Source: Methanosarcinales archaeon
GTDB taxonomy: Archaea; Halobacteriota; UBA148; JAUWXC01
Direction of reading: 5' to 3'
DNA: 64,000 bases
Assembly (NCBI GenBank): GCA_026016205.1
Contig: CP061209.1
Span: forward strand, 822,330-886,329
Shown here: positions 49,881 to 59,105 of the stretch, piece after piece
How the letters are laid out: each line of letters begins with the position of its first letter
Numbering within the stretch: position 1 is the stretch's first letter
Notes under the pieces: generated by a model
Database searches by the model: none
Told to the model about the DNA's origin: nothing
The model's input: the letters and a program-made list of their open reading frames with translations, nothing else
Program-made: the position numbers and the translations under genes

Positions 49881-52043
<2,163 letters not shown>

Positions 52044-52127: not shown

Positions 52128-52280
52128 TTTTGCGTCTGTCCCACTTCCGAAGGAATGGGCATCGCAAAGACATCGTTGTCGTTTCAAAAATCGCCTAAAC
52201 ATTTAGACAATTGTCGAAACGGTCCTCACCCTCCTAATCCCGTCATTTTGGGTTATAAATCACTATTAGACCTATTCTCT

Positions 52281-52346
52281 TTTAAAGCTTTTGTGGTTCT
52301 TGGTGATTATCCGCCATATTTCTCTGATTTTCTAAAAATTGTCGAT
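52281..52346 (+). repeat. Direct repeat copy A flanking toxin-antitoxin block
   Basis: A 66-base segment (from TTTAAAGCTTTTGTGGTT to TTTTCTAAAAATTGTCGAT) that recurs at 54430-54485 with a 10-base gap and about six substitutions. This copy lies in the intergenic region between the S-layer promoter and the vapBC promoter. The remainder of the 52044-52397 gap holds those two promoters and no gene that I can see. Confidence 0.7.
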
Positions 52347-52360
52347 GCAAACAAAAGGGT

Positions 52361-52390
52361 TTATATCTGTGTGCACATATGTGTGCACAG
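52361..52390 (+). promoter_or_regulatory. vapBC promoter with tandem TGTGCACA operators
   Basis: A TTATATC TATA-like element (52361-52367) is followed by two copies of the palindrome TGTGCACA (52370-52377 and 52382-52389), 12 bases apart and lying between the TATA box and the predicted transcription start near 52390. That placement fits autorepression by the RHH antitoxin encoded at 52398. Confidence 0.6.
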
Positions 52391-52397
52391 ATTAAAG

Positions 52398-52619
52398 ATG
52401 ACCAAGACCATTTCGCTGTCCGATGAGGCGTATGATATACTGAAGAGGATGAAAACAGGAAAGGAGAGCTTCTCGGACACCATCAAGAAATTAGCCGGAA
52501 GAGGGAAGTTGAGCGAGGTTCTGGACCTCTACCCGGAGATAACGGACAAGGAGTACGAGAAATCAGCCAAGGAGTTAAGAAAGAAGATAGATGCCAGGCT
52601 GAAGGACATGGGACTATGA
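52398..52619 (+). CDS. vapB: VapB-type antitoxin
   Basis: A 73-residue protein starting MTKTISLSDEAYDILKRMKT, the classical archaeal VapB pattern of an RHH-like DNA-binding N-terminus with GKESFSDTIKKLAGRGKL and a Lys/Glu toxin-binding tail. ATG 52398 is chosen because it follows the predicted transcription start; the open frame upstream runs through the promoter and operators. It overlaps vapC by 4 nt. Confidence 0.9.
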   Translation: MTKTISLSDEAYDILKRMKTGKESFSDTIKKLAGRGKLSEVLDLYPEITDKEYEKSAKELRKKIDARLKDMGL

Positions 52620-53023
52620 AGTGCCTTGACACGACGTACTTTGTCGATTTAGTCAGAAAACCGTCCGCCATCAGGGACATAACAACGAGATTGGATGAGG
52701 AGGACAGGTGTGCCACGACCGTTTTTAACGTCTATGAGGCACTATTTGGAAGTTATGCGGTGGACGATGCTAAGGGCGAGAAGATACGAGAGAAGATAAG
52801 CAAAGCCGCCAATAGGTTGGAAGTCCTGGAATTCCGTTATGTGGATGCATTGAAGGCAGCCGAGATAGGCGGAGCATTACTAAAAAAGAAAAAAGTAGTC
52901 GGTGCAGATGCCATCACGGCTGCGATTGCAATAAACAACGGCTGCGAGGCGGTTGTCACGAGGAACAAGAAGCATTTCGGGTGGATAAAAGACCTAACCG
53001 GCTTGGAAGTTGAGACGTACTAA
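52616..53023 (+). CDS. vapC: VapC PIN-domain toxin
   Basis: A 135-residue PIN ribonuclease. The first Asp is in CLDTTYFVDL, a conserved Glu in FNVYEALFG, then GADAITAAIA and VVTRNKKHFG provide the remaining acidic and structural positions. All catalytic residues look present. It is paired with the overlapping VapB. Confidence 0.92.
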   Translation: MKCLDTTYFVDLVRKPSAIRDITTRLDEEDRCATTVFNVYEALFGSYAVDDAKGEKIREKISKAANRLEVLEFRYVDALKAAEIGGALLKKKKVVGADAITAAIAINNGCEAVVTRNKKHFGWIKDLTGLEVETY

Positions 53024-53051
53024 TCAAGGTCCAAAAGATTTTTATATTGTG

Positions 53052-53069
53052 AATTCCCAAATGGGAATT
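53052..53069 (+). promoter_or_regulatory. Palindromic operator of the AbrB/PIN module
   Basis: AATTCCCA / TGGGAATT, a perfect 8-bp inverted repeat with a 2-base centre, located directly after a TTTTTATATTG TATA element (53038-53048) and just before the antitoxin ATG at 53079. It is a likely binding site for the AbrB antitoxin. Confidence 0.6.
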
Positions 53070-53078
53070 GTGATTAGT

Positions 53079-53306
53079 ATGGAAGCGAAGATGCATTCCG
53101 GAAAATTGTACATACCGAAGAGATTTCTCAAGGCATTGAACATCCAACCCGACTCCGAGATAGAGGTTGAATTAGAGAACGATCATATAGTCATCAGACC
53201 AAGCGTAGGGGTGGATAAAGGAGCTAAGAGATTATTAGAGCTACTAAAAAATCCGCCATATGGATTGGCAGAGGATAAGGAGTACTCATATGAAGATATT
53301 GATTGA
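53079..53306 (+). CDS. AbrB-type antitoxin
   Basis: A 75-residue swapped-hairpin protein (MEAKMHSGKLYIPKRFLKAL at the start) with DSEIEVELENDHIVIRPS completing the AbrB fold and an acidic C-terminal tail (EDKEYSYEDID) for toxin binding. ATG 53079 follows the TATA box and operator; ATG 53061 lies inside the operator and is less likely. It overlaps the PIN gene by 17 nt. Confidence 0.85.
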   Translation: MEAKMHSGKLYIPKRFLKALNIQPDSEIEVELENDHIVIRPSVGVDKGAKRLLELLKNPPYGLAEDKEYSYEDID

Positions 53307-53763
53307 TACTGAAATATGGGCGTATGCGTACAAGAAGCCAAAGAAGGACTGGTTCGAGAGTGAAAAGGAATACGATAAGCAGATATCTTTGCATGAACTT
53401 GCAGGGGAGTTTGTGAAGGATAAGCTCATGAATGATGTTATATTCATGTCGCATCAAGAGATCGCAGAGATATGGCATGTTTTAACCATGCGAGGGAGAA
53501 GAATTCCGGGGGATGTGGCCTATGATATCATCAAAGCCCTACTTGACACAAGCACCGTGATTCAAGTGGGAATTACAAAAAGCGATGTTACCAAGGCTAT
53601 TGAGCTCAGCAAGGAAACGAAAATACATATATGGGACTTTTTAGTGGTTCTTCCGTGCGAACAATTAGATAGGATTTATACAATGGATGAGCATTTCAGG
53701 CACAAAGCCTTTCAAGAGATTGCCCCAGTTGAGAACCCGCTGGGCGTGTGGTTAACGATGTGA
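53290..53763 (+). CDS. PIN-domain toxin
   Basis: A 157-residue PIN protein starting MKILIDTEIWAYAYKKPKKD; the first Asp is at residue 6, SHQEIAEIWHVL gives the conserved Glu, IHIWDFLV the third acidic site and YTMDEHF the last. It is longer than average because of an insertion after the first strand (EKEYDKQISLHELAGEFVKDK). It is paired with the overlapping AbrB antitoxin. Confidence 0.87.
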   Translation: MKILIDTEIWAYAYKKPKKDWFESEKEYDKQISLHELAGEFVKDKLMNDVIFMSHQEIAEIWHVLTMRGRRIPGDVAYDIIKALLDTSTVIQVGITKSDVTKAIELSKETKIHIWDFLVVLPCEQLDRIYTMDEHFRHKAFQEIAPVENPLGVWLTM

Positions 53764-53778
53764 AGATGTCACGGCGAG

Positions 53779-54186
53779 CTACTTCTCAAGCCTGATGATG
53801 TCATTGAATTTATCATAATGAGCATCCTGCGAGTAAATCTCCTTTATCCTCATCTTCCGCATGGTTAAGACATGATGTGCATCTATGAAGTCAATATCGT
53901 ATTTATCGTAAAGTTCCAGGATCTTATCTGATATGGCGTGATTTTCCGCCCCGATCAATTTCAAGCCACTGCAACCTAAAAATGCTGACAGGTACTCCCT
54001 TATCTTGTTTTTGGGCTTTTTTGCCCTCTCAAGTACGTGCGCAATCTCTGCCAATGTAAATATCGTCGTGATAGCTTTCTCCCTTCCATCCGATATCCTC
54101 AGCATTATTTCTCGCATATCGTCGAGCTTCGCCTTTGGCGCTCTGAGCATAACGCCAAGTGGAATGGAGGCATCGAGATATCTCAT
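53779..54186 (-). CDS. PIN-domain toxin
   Basis: A 135-residue VapC-like nuclease: MRYLDASIPLGVML carries the first Asp, FTLAEIAHVLERA the conserved Glu, and DIDFIDAHHVLTMR and YSQDAHYDKF the last acidic residues. It overlaps the antitoxin by 4 nt and is convergent with the preceding PIN gene. Confidence 0.9.
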   Translation of the reverse strand: MRYLDASIPLGVMLRAPKAKLDDMREIMLRISDGREKAITTIFTLAEIAHVLERAKKPKNKIREYLSAFLGCSGLKLIGAENHAISDKILELYDKYDIDFIDAHHVLTMRKMRIKEIYSQDAHYDKFNDIIRLEK

Positions 54187-54404
54187 TCCTCCTCGTGAGC
54201 AAAAGCCTCATGCATAAGTTTCACAGGGTCGTCTGCAAAGCCCTCTAAACACCCTTCACATACCTCAACGAAGTTTTTCTTGTGTCTGACCAGTTTTATC
54301 TCGCAGGCTATCTCATCTTTTGGCCCTATGTTCTGTTCAGCCCGTACCTCAGCAGGAATTAGTATCCTGCCCTTATCGTCCACGGTTCCCACAAATTCAT
54401 CCAT
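54183..54404 (-). CDS. AbrB-type antitoxin
   Basis: A 73-residue protein starting MDEFVGTVDDKGRILIPAEV, a standard AbrB DNA-binding hairpin, with a C-terminal tail FADDPVKLMHEAFAHEEE. ATG 54404 is preferred to the upstream 54428 because TTTAAATA lies 26 bases before it, which predicts a leaderless message starting at this codon. A CEGC pair near residue 50 is unusual for this family. Confidence 0.86.
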   Translation of the reverse strand: MDEFVGTVDDKGRILIPAEVRAEQNIGPKDEIACEIKLVRHKKNFVEVCEGCLEGFADDPVKLMHEAFAHEEE

Positions 54405-54429
54405 ATTTCCCACTATAGAAATATTCATA

Positions 54430-54485
54430 TTTAAAACTTTTGTGGTTATTCGCTATGTTTCTCCGATTTTCTAAAAATCGTCGAT
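54430..54485 (+). repeat. Direct repeat copy B flanking toxin-antitoxin block
   Basis: A 56-base relative of the segment at 52281-52346, in the same orientation, lacking ten internal bases. It abuts the promoter of the minus-strand AbrB gene. Confidence 0.7.
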
Positions 54486-54580
54486 TTTGATGGTTGATGA
54501 TTAAGTTTGCTGTTTAAGGTGAGCGAAAAAGGCATAAAAGCAAGCGTTTGCCAGATAAAAGACTTATCTCATTAGGCATA

Positions 54581-54985
54581 TTATAGTTCAGCGGGCAACT
54601 TTACCTCGATTTCTGCTATTTTTCTAAACATTTCATCCCTCGTAACCAAGACACATCTGTGAACTTTGCATGTAGAGGCGATCATCGCATCTGGAAGTCT
54701 CGCCTTATATTTGGCTCTGATTATTGCTGCTTCTTTCGCGATGGACAAGTCTACATCGATGATCGTGAAGTTGTTAATAGCCCTTATGTCTACGAGAAAT
54801 CTTTCTCCTTTTTCGATTTCCCCTCTGGAGTGGAAGCCGCTCAGAATCTCTGCTACGCAGATCACAGAGGTGAATCCAACATGTTTCCCCCTATGAATGT
54901 TTTCGAATAGTCTCTTCGCTAGTTGATAATTTTCTTCTTCGTTCAGAATGCTCAGGAAGATGTTGGCGTCTATAAATAGCCTCAT
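54581..54985 (-). CDS. PIN-domain toxin
   Basis: A 134-residue VapC-like nuclease: MRLFIDANIFLSIL with the first Asp, SVICVAEILSGF with the conserved Glu, RLPDAMIAST with the third Asp and VTRDEMFRKI at the end. ATG 54985 is chosen because MRLFIDAN is the usual start. It follows its AbrB antitoxin, whose stop at 54990 is 4 bases upstream. Confidence 0.9.
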   Translation of the reverse strand: MRLFIDANIFLSILNEEENYQLAKRLFENIHRGKHVGFTSVICVAEILSGFHSRGEIEKGERFLVDIRAINNFTIIDVDLSIAKEAAIIRAKYKARLPDAMIASTCKVHRCVLVTRDEMFRKIAEIEVKLPAEL

Positions 54986-54989
54986 GCGA

Positions 54990-55244
54990 TTACTTCTCTC
55001 GTTCTTTGCCTGTTCTGTGCTCCCATTCATCCCTCATTTGCATCTGGTACTCCAGACTCTTTCCAAATATGCCCTTCCCCAGTCCAACAAGGTCTGCTAT
55101 TGGATTCTTTGGAGCTTTCTTCAACACGATCTTCTCGTCTTCAATGTCGAATACCACTTTTTCCCCTGTCTTGATGTCCAGCAGTCTTCTCAGCCGTTGG
55201 GGGATGGTGACCTGCCCCTTCTTTGTGATTTTGCTGCACTCCAT
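54990..55244 (-). CDS. AbrB-type antitoxin
   Basis: An 84-residue protein starting MECSKITKKGQVTIPQRLRR, the most canonical AbrB/MazE hairpin in the window, with a C-terminal arm YQMQMRDEWEHRTGKEREK. It is autoregulated, judging by the inverted repeat immediately upstream of its start. Confidence 0.9.
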   Translation of the reverse strand: MECSKITKKGQVTIPQRLRRLLDIKTGEKVVFDIEDEKIVLKKAPKNPIADLVGLGKGIFGKSLEYQMQMRDEWEHRTGKEREK

Positions 55245-55413: not shown

Positions 55414-56223
55414 CTATAGCCTCTCCCATCGTCTCTTCTGGTATACCACGACTGCTATGATGAGGATGGCGATTATAATCCCCACATAAATCACGCGGCT
55501 TGTCAAGACCTGGTGCCCAGAGGCACCTCTTGCACTGTCATACGCCCTCACCGCACTGTCATAGGCGTTGTCGGCGGCTGCGATCGACTCGTTCATCGCC
55601 CCTCGAACGTAAAATTCGTTGCTGTTGTTGAAATAAATCTTCGCGGTCTGGAGATATTCCTCCGCCTGGGTTACATCTGCTCCAGCATCGCTGGCATCGG
55701 CGATGGTTTGCTCGGCCTCTACAATCTTGTTCCACGCCCTGTCTTTAGCCTCCTGAGCCTCGTCAATCTGTCCGCTCGTCACATATCTCGTAATCGTATA
55801 TATCGTGCTCAGCGGATCGGGCGCTGTTTGCGTGACTTCTATCAGAACTTTCTCAGTCTTAACCCCTACCGGGGGGGCGTTGCCGCTTAACTTAATCGTT
55901 ACGGTATTGTATTTATGATGGTCGAACACGAAACTAATTTTATTCTTGATATACGTCACAGGTGCTTCATCATTCATGATGATGTTCCAGATAGGGTTTA
56001 CCAACTCCGTTCGCAGCTCAAGCCTCGTTGCCCCTTCTAGACTCGGGGTCGTTTCCTTCAGAACGAGTTGTGTGAACACATCTCCGCCGACGATCAAATC
56101 ACCGCTCGGGGTGACAGTCTCGGACTCAAACTTGAAATTGGTCTCCGCGAGAACGGGTGTCGCGAGGGAGAGTAAAATCAGGATTGCCAATGCGAATGCA
56201 CCCAATCTAGCGCCTCTCATCAT
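55414..56223 (-). CDS. Secreted, C-terminally anchored protein next to cetZ
   Basis: 269 residues: signal peptide 1-26 (ending VLAET), a beta-rich domain to about 145, a helical region (about 150-238, AQEAKDRAWNKIVEAEQTIA and further Ala-rich heptads), a membrane helix at 245-263 (YVGIIIAILIIAVVVY) and a basic end KRRWERL. The topology puts the domains outside the cell. It starts 10 bases after cetZ, so it is co-transcribed with it. I do not recognise the family. Confidence 0.75.
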   Translation of the reverse strand: MMRGARLGAFALAILILLSLATPVLAETNFKFESETVTPSGDLIVGGDVFTQLVLKETTPSLEGATRLELRTELVNPIWNIIMNDEAPVTYIKNKISFVFDHHKYNTVTIKLSGNAPPVGVKTEKVLIEVTQTAPDPLSTIYTITRYVTSGQIDEAQEAKDRAWNKIVEAEQTIADASDAGADVTQAEEYLQTAKIYFNNSNEFYVRGAMNESIAAADNAYDSAVRAYDSARGASGHQVLTSRVIYVGIIIAILIIAVVVYQKRRWERL

Positions 56224-56233
56224 ATCACACCAG

Positions 56234-57412
56234 TTAGAACAACGGCTTAAGCGATTTATCCGTGTCCATCAACTTGTCGTACTTCTTGCCGCTCTTGTTG
56301 GCAACCTCTTTAATGCTATCCTGCGCATCAACCGCAAGTTTCTGCAATTCCTTAACCCTTGGAATCTCAGACACGCCAGACAAAAGGACCACGGCAGCCA
56401 CATACCTGCTGGTAGGAATGGGATAATCGCCGCCCCTGACTTCTGTGCCGTCTATCATATCCTCGATCCACACCTTTGCCCGGTCTATCCCCTTCCTGTT
56501 CAACTCGTCTGGAGGGCCTGCCAGTAACACCAGGGCCCTTTCAGCAGACCCGACGTCGCACTGCAGCGTTAATCGACCCATAACCGCTCTTCGCACCAGG
56601 GATGTTATTCGTGTGGTAGCGTCAAGTGTCTCTATAGATGCCTTTTTCCGTTTGAACAAACTAGAGATTATATTAGAAAGGGAGCCGCTTTTGATGGGCA
56701 ACTCCTCCCTTGCATAACCAATCACCGAGATGCCTCCGCCTTTTAATGTGTTGATTATTTCGGAGGTGTCAACAACCAACTGGCCCACGCCGCTTCTCTC
56801 AAACCTTTCGCCCGCACCAATGAGGATGCCGAATCGCCTCACAACCTCATCATTCATAGATGCATAAGCGTCCTTAAGCGTCTCGCCTTCCTTCTTCCAC
56901 AACTCATTATCGAATAAGAAGAGATTGTCGACCTCTTTTGCCAGTGTCATGAAACTCCTGGCTGCGTTCAGGGTGTAGAGTCCACCCTCCTCCTTTGCCG
57001 GTAAAAGCCCAAGGGCATAGACGGGTTCGCTATACAGTGTTTTTAATCTGCGCGCCAGGACAGGTGCGCCACCAGAGCCGGTACCGCCACCCAGCCCGGC
57101 AACAATTAGAAATGCATCAATTTTATGAGTTCCCCTCTTATCAATGGCGCTCTGCACCGTATAGATTTCATCAGTGGCTATTTTTGCACCAAGTTCGTTG
57201 TCTGCCCCTACGCCATGGCCTTTCACAATAGATTGCCCTATTAATACCCTATCCTCCATAGGTATATTCTTTACACCCATGAGATCTGCCTTGGCCGTGT
57301 TGATGCACATCGCCCTTTCAATGCTATGCTGACCCGTTCGCTTATCATACTCTACAAAAAGGTCTATTATCCTTCCGCCTGCTTGTCCATAACCGATTAC
57401 GAACAGTTTCAT
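56234..57412 (-). CDS. cetZ: CetZ-like tubulin/FtsZ superfamily GTPase
   Basis: A cytoskeletal GTPase of the CetZ (FtsZ3-like) group, whose haloarchaeal members control cell shape. The 392 residues carry the N-terminal nucleotide loop FVIGYGQAGGRIIDLF, where FtsZ has GVGGGG-N, the tubulin signature GLGGGTGSGGAP (108-114), and NTAKADLMGV and NDEVVRRFGILIGAGERF downstream. No FtsZ C-terminal SepF-binding peptide is seen. It has its own TATA box, 80 bases upstream. The neighbours suggest a membrane-linked shape or division function. Confidence 0.9.
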   Translation of the reverse strand: MKLFVIGYGQAGGRIIDLFVEYDKRTGQHSIERAMCINTAKADLMGVKNIPMEDRVLIGQSIVKGHGVGADNELGAKIATDEIYTVQSAIDKRGTHKIDAFLIVAGLGGGTGSGGAPVLARRLKTLYSEPVYALGLLPAKEEGGLYTLNAARSFMTLAKEVDNLFLFDNELWKKEGETLKDAYASMNDEVVRRFGILIGAGERFERSGVGQLVVDTSEIINTLKGGGISVIGYAREELPIKSGSLSNIISSLFKRKKASIETLDATTRITSLVRRAVMGRLTLQCDVGSAERALVLLAGPPDELNRKGIDRAKVWIEDMIDGTEVRGGDYPIPTSRYVAAVVLLSGVSEIPRVKELQKLAVDAQDSIKEVANKSGKKYDKLMDTDKSLKPLF

Positions 57413-57490
57413 TTATATCCTCTCACTAATTGTAAGTGTACCATCTCTTCTTTGACTGCTAATTATGGATATAGATAGGATATACCACCC

Positions 57491-57500
57491 TATATAAATG
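57491..57500 (-). promoter_or_regulatory. TATA box of cetZ
   Basis: Minus-strand CATTTATATA, predicting a start near 57470 and a leader of about 60 bases with GAGGATA just before ATG 57412. It lies just before the stop of the PRC-barrel gene, so cetZ can be transcribed on its own as well as by read-through. Confidence 0.5.
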
Positions 57501-57505
57501 TATTT

Positions 57506-58213
57506 TTAATGGGACTTGTCATGGCGAAGGATAAGATACTCATTGTAAGCGTTTGTTAGCCTAACAGCATCAACCGGCATCAACGCATGCCTGTCATCAA
57601 TCGTGGGCAACTTGGATGCGTCAACGCCTTTTTCCAATTTTACAATTATGCCCAATAAACTCAAAGTTGTGTTATCAAAAATGATGTCGCGTACTGTTCC
57701 CACAAGAGTGCCATCACCGTATATGACGCTCTGCCCTAACAAAGTCTTCGCAGATGCTCCAGGGGGTGCATCTTTATATTGATGCAGCAGGGATTCAACC
57801 AACCGGTCCCTTTTATCAAACATGTCTATGTTTATCCCCAGGAGTTTTGCGGGCCCCACAAGGTCCACGACGTCGCCTAGGCGGGTAAATTCCTCTTTAA
57901 AGCTGTACAGCATTGCATACACCAGGCACTGTGCATATGCAAACGGATAGTCCTTTGCAAATTTGCCATGAATTTTTCTGGCCCTTGCATCCTCGGGATT
58001 GCGGAGAAAGTCGTCTGCTATCTCCTTGACCTTGGACGCAAAGACGGCCTCTGCGTCTGACTCCTTCTTTAACGCACCAACAGCCCTCGGGATTGCAAAT
58101 TTGATGTAATGTTCCAGGGACCTCTCGTCCACTGGCTCGAGTAGAAAATTCCAGGGAAACAGTCGCGATTGTAGATAGTTAAAGGCCTTATCTGCGCTTA
58201 GTTTTATCGACAT
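57506..58213 (-). CDS. PRC-barrel protein upstream of cetZ
   Basis: 235 residues: an N-terminal all-helical part (1-155) and a C-terminal PRC-barrel (about 158-230, LLGQSVIYGDGTLVGTVRDIIFD then LLGIIVKLEKG). PRC-barrel proteins of the CdpB type act in archaeal cell division by binding SepF. A related architecture beside cetZ suggests a partner of the cytoskeletal GTPase. That link is inferred; the helical part is unrecognised. It overlaps the upstream gene by 26 nt. Confidence 0.8.
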   Translation of the reverse strand: MSIKLSADKAFNYLQSRLFPWNFLLEPVDERSLEHYIKFAIPRAVGALKKESDAEAVFASKVKEIADDFLRNPEDARARKIHGKFAKDYPFAYAQCLVYAMLYSFKEEFTRLGDVVDLVGPAKLLGINIDMFDKRDRLVESLLHQYKDAPPGASAKTLLGQSVIYGDGTLVGTVRDIIFDNTTLSLLGIIVKLEKGVDASKLPTIDDRHALMPVDAVRLTNAYNEYLILRHDKSH

Positions 58214-59105
58214 GGTATTTCCTTATGAACGTGATAATCTGCTGTATTTTTGGTTTATCTTCTTCAACTGGAGCGGGGGCCTCCATACTGCAGAGCTTCC
58301 ATGCCCACCTTCCAAAATCCGTTACTTCGTACTTATCGCCATGCTTCTCGACCAGGGGACATTCCCATTCATCCTGCACCAGATACTTTAGCCCCTCTTC
58401 AAGCCTCTTATTATACATATCGGTTACGAGATCCTTGTATTCCTCATCCTCAATGTCACAGATTTCCTGAAGTTCCTTTAAAGTCAGTGCAGATTTTGAG
58501 TCGACTAAGATATTAAAAGCGATAAAGGCGTAGTCCTTTTCTTTAAGGCGCTGCCAGCTTATATCCACCTGATTTGGTATCCCCAGCACCTTTTTCGCCG
58601 ATTCCTGGAGGATTGTAGTCACATAATTGAGAGAGCTGAGCGCTACAAGGTCACTGACCTCCTGGGCTTTGAGGTGTATGCCCTTGGCAGATATGTCCGC
58701 ATTTTTAAACTCAAGCTTGGATTGGGGTTTGTCAAAGAATATGTCCGTTATTGCCATGAAATAGTCCTTGGAAATCGGTTCATGCTCGCTGTCATAGGGG
58801 AATATATCGCCCCTTCTTTGGTCCAGACTGGGAGCAAAATCGGATGTCAACTCGAGGAGTTCAGATATGACTTCAGAGATGTTCGCATAAGCACCCTCTG
58901 TTTCGCTCGTAATCGCTTTCAGTTCACGTGCCTTCTTCTCTAAGTCCAACCTTAATTTGCCGGTGATGCCTTTTTCGAGTAACTTTTCAATCTCTTCTAA
59001 CTCCTTCCTCTTGTTATCCATTTCTTCGGCATCGATGTCCTTCTTAAGAGACCGGTATTTTTCGGCCAGGGTGTTTATCCGTTCGTTAAAGGCAACCTTA
59101 CTCAT
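58188..59105 (-). CDS. Coiled-coil protein with C-terminal winged-helix region
   Basis: 305 residues. Residues 1-90 form a charged coiled coil (NERINTLAEKYRSLKKDIDA onward), 95-200 is a mixed region, and about 205-275 resembles a winged helix (ALTLKELQEICDIEDEEYKD, YEVTDFGRWAW). The last 25 residues are basic. It could be a DNA-associated structural protein. It is the first gene of the cetZ cluster, overlapping the PRC-barrel gene. I do not recognise the family. Confidence 0.72.
   Translation of the reverse strand: MSKVAFNERINTLAEKYRSLKKDIDAEEMDNKRKELEEIEKLLEKGITGKLRLDLEKKARELKAITSETEGAYANISEVISELLELTSDFAPSLDQRRGDIFPYDSEHEPISKDYFMAITDIFFDKPQSKLEFKNADISAKGIHLKAQEVSDLVALSSLNYVTTILQESAKKVLGIPNQVDISWQRLKEKDYAFIAFNILVDSKSALTLKELQEICDIEDEEYKDLVTDMYNKRLEEGLKYLVQDEWECPLVEKHGDKYEVTDFGRWAWKLCSMEAPAPVEEDKPKIQQIITFIRKYHVDKTKRR

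Follow-up and report, generated by a model that had tools for sequence, protein, structure and literature searches.

The window, a stretch of 64,000 nucleotides, belongs to a genome that consists of a single contig of 987 kb (completeness 87%) and whose closest named relatives carry the label Methanocellales archaeon. Four minus-strand open reading frames lie head to tail in it, and both the ORF list and the sequence confirmed the coordinates assigned to them in the preliminary description (Table 1). In reading order, they encode a predicted coiled-coil and winged-helix protein (W), a PRC-barrel protein (P), CetZ and a predicted secreted membrane protein (M). The spacing is 93 nt between P and cetZ and 10 nt between cetZ and M. 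Here and in most of the relatives' loci, a TATA-like box sits just past the stop codon of P; thus, the head-to-tail order need not correspond to a single transcript, and a single four-gene operon was not adopted as a model because this box lies between P and cetZ. Its position suggests that cetZ and M may be transcribed from a promoter of their own. Beside the cluster, a dense run of small gene pairs resembling VapBC-type toxin-antitoxin modules was observed (positions 52155-55244 of the window), and next to this run lies a gene (49881-52043) for a 720-aa secreted protein, possibly of the surface-layer type, with a PGF-CTERM-like sorting signal at its end.

Table 1 Features of the W-P-cetZ-M locus (positions in the window)
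Feature	Position	Strand	Basis or remark
W gene, 305 aa, coiled-coil and winged-helix protein (predicted)	58188..59105	-	ORF; no family match; AF2
W residues 6-88, long helices (predicted coiled coil)	58842..59090	-	AF2 model
W residues 179-272, winged-helix-like domain (predicted)	58290..58571	-	AF2 model; charge
W/P reading-frame overlap, 26 nt	58188..58213	-	ORF coordinates
P gene, 235 aa, N-terminal helical domain and C-terminal PRC-barrel	57506..58213	-	Pfam; AF2
P residues 1-150, domain made of helices only, PWN and PFA..Q motifs invariant	57764..58213	-	Sequence; AF2
P residues 155-224, PRC-barrel	57542..57751	-	Pfam; Foldseek
TATA-like box TTTATATA between P and cetZ	57491..57498	-	Possible separate promoter for cetZ-M
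cetZ, 392 aa	56234..57412	-	Pfam, PDB match
CetZ C-terminal tail SLKPLF	56237..56254	-	Part of conserved (P/S)L(F/I/V) end
M gene, 269 aa, secreted single-pass membrane protein (predicted)	55414..56223	-	ORF; across the phylum, homologues directly follow cetZ
M residues 1-26, predicted signal peptide	56146..56223	-	Sequence
M residues ~243-260, transmembrane helix	55444..55497	-	Sequence; hydropathy scan of homologues
M residues 261-269, short tail, basic and predicted to be cytoplasmic, end RRWERL	55417..55443	-	Tail comparison; charge

The product of cetZ belongs to the CetZ family. It matches the Pfam domains CetZ_C (E=8.4e-68) and Tubulin (E=9.6e-30), the GGGTGSG motif of the Tubulin/FtsZ GTPase domain is present at residues 108-114, and the score against the NCBIfam ftsZ equivalog was 86 bits (cut-off 295), indicating a CetZ-specific C-terminal domain and not FtsZ. 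The best PDB chain was 4b46 (E=1.3e-143), with a pairwise identity of 56% over 386 residues, and the identity to 4b45 was 48%. Both chains are labelled just FtsZ in the PDB search; we take them to be CetZ1 and CetZ2 of Haloferax volcanii, respectively. Nearly all of the 138 CetZ proteins compared share a (P/S)L(F/I/V) ending: 88 end in PLF, 23 in SLF and 18 in PLI or PLV, and 8 carry one extra residue after LF. The tails of CetZ1 and CetZ2 are described as negatively charged in the main text of a published survey (PMC9856176), and no description of the terminal motif was found in the literature searched. Several CetZ copies per genome were seen in some Methanophagales (G179, G141, G199 and G278); some of these copies match the profile only from position 1 to ~361 and are perhaps tail-less. 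Directly 5' of cetZ in another genome (G218, L105:7286-8305), there is a gene for a 339-aa CetZ-like protein without the GGGTGSG nucleotide-binding motif, as if it were a non-hydrolysing partner of CetZ.

The two non-PRC partners had been regarded as unrecognised families, and our searches agree: neither W nor M has a credible Pfam or NCBIfam match (Pfam, also run on all homologues of both, gave weak, scattered matches below the cut-offs), and PDB profile searches with either protein produced no meaningful match. Isocitrate dehydrogenase and designed-protein matches in these PDB searches were dismissed as composition or coiled-coil noise, and a LegC2/C7 NCBIfam match to W (19.5 bits, cut-off 350) was dismissed as a coiled-coil artefact. 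In the AF2 model of W (pLDDT 82), the predicted parts are long helices at the N-terminus, a domain of mixed structure in the middle and a winged helix; a Foldseek search with this model returned nothing below E=0.4 and no convincing structural match. The product of the fourth gene has the features by which we define the M family, namely, an N-terminal signal, one C-terminal membrane helix, a short tail and a gene located behind cetZ. M is poorly conserved in sequence (about 25% between families). Some tail motif is present in most of the 104 M proteins compared, the commonest ending being (W/Y/F)D(E/K/R)L plus one residue; the ending is RW(E/G)RL in the window's relatives and KRG(I/V)Y in Methanophagales, and the tail is basic in the W-bearing lineages.

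In P, the AF2 model (pLDDT 88) predicts an all-helical domain followed by a PRC-barrel, and residues 155-224 match Pfam PRC above the cut-off (E=1.6e-6). The top nine Foldseek matches of the PRC domain were all to 8onw or 8qzo (E about 1e-5), and a profile match to 8qzo had E=1.5e-13; these entries, the A. fulgidus PRC1/PRC2 and CdpB1/CdpB2 heterodimers, are the nearest solved structures. However, P departs from the CdpB architecture, in which the PRC domain comes without a large extra domain, by the 150-residue helical domain in front, and its gene adjoins cetZ. Elsewhere, the host genome encodes SepF and has two genes each for FtsZ and for small PRC proteins; P is thus no replacement for CdpB, and its role as the cell's CdpB substitute was rejected because of the two small PRC genes. 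None of W, P, CetZ and M matches the SepF domain PF04472. A fourth PRC-like domain of the host genome lies inside a 593-aa open frame (G000:C1:608586-608768).

Homologues of W were searched for in 394 genomes of the phylum and were found in 55. In 45 of these, W, P and cetZ adjoin one another with order and orientation unchanged, and M follows in 43; such agreement among 43 genomes indicates that the cluster is not due to chance. The contiguous cluster spans six families, three in the window's order and three others (search labels f8, f26 and f32), with Methanophagales (ANME-1) included. According to a scan of named genomes, most W homologues occur in records labelled Methanophagales (ANME-1), Methanocellales, Methanosarcinales or Syntrophoarchaeum, and one sits in a Nitrosotalea-labelled record, probably owing to a binning error. 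Among the ten non-contiguous cases, five break off at a contig end (G072, G097, G155, G244 and G297, with a partial CetZ at the contig end in the last two), and G117 has a fragment of W at a contig end. W-P and cetZ-M occupy two separate places in G033, G082 and G146, cetZ and M still being together, and in G287 (66% complete), a convergent MutS-like gene occupies the expected place of cetZ. The preliminary description would have been contradicted by partners found mostly without cetZ; instead, W was found only in CetZ-containing genomes except for four incomplete assemblies, which are G287 and the three with W-P at a contig end (G072, G097 and G155). Within family f8, CetZ was detected in 34 of the 37 W-bearing genomes versus none of the 10 genomes with P but without W, an association that involves few independent lineages, the latter group comprising two genera only, and whose Fisher p-value is not to be read literally.

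Because the M profile matched proteins directly behind cetZ in haloarchaea-like genomes, 60 more cetZ loci were taken by CetZ match alone, and the downstream gene was inspected (40 haloarchaea-like and 20 Archaeoglobales-like loci, classes inferred from gene content and CetZ identity). An M-like protein, scored by an N-terminal signal, a C-terminal membrane helix and a short tail, was encoded directly 3' of cetZ in 34 of the 60 loci (23/40 and 11/20, respectively); a minority of these calls came from the listed features and the tail, the score against the first M profile not being significant. M is the most widely conserved cetZ partner of the three; this membrane protein, and not the PRC protein, is the deeply conserved one. 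The junction of the CetZ1-type gene with M is usually an overlap of 22-37 nt or a gap of ~10 nt. Haloferax-like species are among the haloarchaea-like loci with M abutting or overlapping the 3' end of cetZ; the closest of them combine a (P/S)LF tail with M directly downstream, and in three loci, CetZ is 98-99% identical to 4b46 and M is present with a 31-nt overlap. The gene beside H. volcanii cetZ1 is presumably HVO_2203, for which a literature search found no paper. In 17 of the 40 haloarchaea-like and 9 of the 20 Archaeoglobales-like loci, M is absent behind cetZ, and CetZ can thus probably work without it there; the next gene in the usual order (cofC-like or UbiX-like) generally comes straight after cetZ in such loci. 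The adjacency of cetZ and M was also seen in Methanomicrobiales-like and Methanocella-like loci, which were selected by M-profile match and left out of the counts. W, in contrast, was not found in the haloarchaea-like genomes of the 394-genome scan, a difference between haloarchaeal CetZ1 loci and that of the window. The data support an old cetZ-M pair to which W-P was added as a partly independent unit.

Other associations of W and P concern cell division genes. In 21 distinct Methanophagales genomes, ftsZ divergently adjoins W (three of these examples were confirmed by the NCBIfam ftsZ model). Ten Methanophagales genomes possess P, lack W and have no CetZ match at 1e-60; in the CetZ-free loci examined, P is followed by a MutS-like protein (its MutS_V match falls slightly short of the Pfam threshold) and a winged-helix protein, and three of these loci adjoin FtsZ. 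Since these ten genomes retain P without CetZ, P is not a dedicated CetZ partner; what stands of the PRC protein's suggested partnership is that P is a real, conserved neighbour whose PRC domain is nearest to CdpB1/CdpB2. The MutS_V-like ATPase is also weakly similar to MutS2 and KamC, its winged-helix neighbour has an AAA_assoc_C domain, and the three genes form an apparent operon at L106, L107, L108, L109, L110 and L198-L203, which represent CetZ-free genomes plus a second P copy in G102. In a few genomes (L069, L070, L074 and L075), a MutS-like gene comes after W-P-cetZ-M.

Conserved cetZ neighbours were surveyed by Brown and Duggin (2023), whose main text lists nolA, cof, pur, pilus and nad genes, with nolA, cof and pur genes described beside haloarchaeal cetZ1, and reports few neighbourhood similarities in Archaeoglobales, Methanomicrobiales and Methanosarcinales (PMC9856176). 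That main text does not mention M, W or P, and the term "PRC" is absent from it (PMC9856176). The preliminary description knew of no account of such a membrane-to-cytoskeleton assembly, and no description of the cluster was found in the literature searched; CetZ itself is already known, and the partner families W, P and M appear to be undescribed.

How might these proteins work together? We interpret the locus as two joined units, cetZ-M and W-P, in which CetZ and M would form an envelope-coupling unit and W and P a lineage-specific adaptor, and we assign this reading a probability of about 0.5. We infer a type-I topology for M: a beta-rich and helical domain would lie outside the cell, a single helix would cross the membrane, and the short basic tail would be in the cytoplasm. 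The most likely role of M is to link polymers of CetZ with the membrane and the surface of the cell, and its tail would meet CetZ directly or indirectly, perhaps at the (P/S)L(F/I/V) C-terminus. In favour of the two-unit model are the conserved gene order, the restriction of W to genomes with CetZ (incomplete assemblies apart), the M genes behind cetZ in 34 of 60 loci, the three genomes in which cetZ-M stays together apart from W-P, the conserved tails, the CdpB-like PRC domain, the neighbouring ftsZ and the acidic winged helix. The different ending of ANME-1 M proteins (KRGIY versus WDELG) was counted against it, as were the loci lacking M, the low sequence conservation of M, the persistence of P without CetZ, the TATA-like element and the failure to find W in haloarchaea-like genomes. 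The proposed role resembles that of SepF, the archaeal membrane anchor of FtsZ (PMC8178401, PMC8187382), in providing a membrane link for a tubulin-family filament, but M is predicted to span the membrane and to have an outer domain, and the genome's own SepF lies elsewhere. P would act as a PRC-barrel adaptor with a fold related to CdpB and W as a coiled-coil and acidic winged-helix scaffold, the two most likely assembling in the cytoplasm into a complex by which CetZ is organised in Methanophagales and their relatives; this complex may also coordinate CetZ with FtsZ. Only tentatively do we extend this to the proposal that CetZ1-type tubulins throughout the phylum have M as a dedicated transmembrane partner tying the cytoskeleton to the surface and that, in ANME-1 and relatives, W-P joins CetZ and FtsZ in one locus, perhaps one machine.

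The partial independence of W-P allows a different interpretation, in which W-P is an independent unit related to division or the chromosome and linked to FtsZ or to the MutS-like ATPase; it would simply be a neighbour of cetZ-M, the latter being the only functional CetZ unit. That P has FtsZ, the MutS-like ATPase or both beside it in genomes without CetZ fits this interpretation, as do the three genomes with W-P apart from cetZ-M, the possible promoter between P and cetZ, and the resemblance of the PRC domain to division proteins. We nevertheless consider it rather unlikely, because W tracks CetZ in f8 (the comparison group, of two genera, not being independent) and the adjacency has been preserved across six families. 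That the gene order has persisted simply through slow genome rearrangement, with no functional link, is improbable: most W-bearing genomes do come from few related orders, but what flanks the four genes changes from family to family, whereas the four remain together, and the surroundings of the adjacent cetZ-M pair likewise vary among the Haloarchaea, Archaeoglobales-like and Methanomicrobiales-like genomes that have it.

We attach similarly little probability to the idea that W, as a winged-helix protein, regulates transcription of the locus and has P for a co-factor. The winged-helix-like fold, the weak similarity to the replication terminator protein in Foldseek (E=0.43) and the upstream region common to W and the divergent gene in most loci would suit such a regulator. 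However, the winged-helix domain is acidic, with a net charge of -9 in the window and a mean of -6.6 over 30 homologues, which speaks against a plain DNA-binding role; moreover, W has a long predicted coiled coil, and no DNA-binding family matched at its cut-off.

The gene directly behind cetZ1 in Haloferax-like species, which is conserved in distant methanogens and Archaeoglobales-like genomes, provides a specific candidate in organisms that are amenable to genetics. The presence of M behind cetZ in culturable, genetically modifiable haloarchaea makes the link between the cytoskeleton and the cell surface testable now, and the tails of CetZ and M are short motifs that can be mutated. P provides an example of a PRC fold similar to that of CdpB in a context other than the known one with FtsZ and SepF, and the W-P genes, together with their adjacency to ftsZ, offer a first handle on the cytoskeleton of the uncultured ANME-1 archaea.
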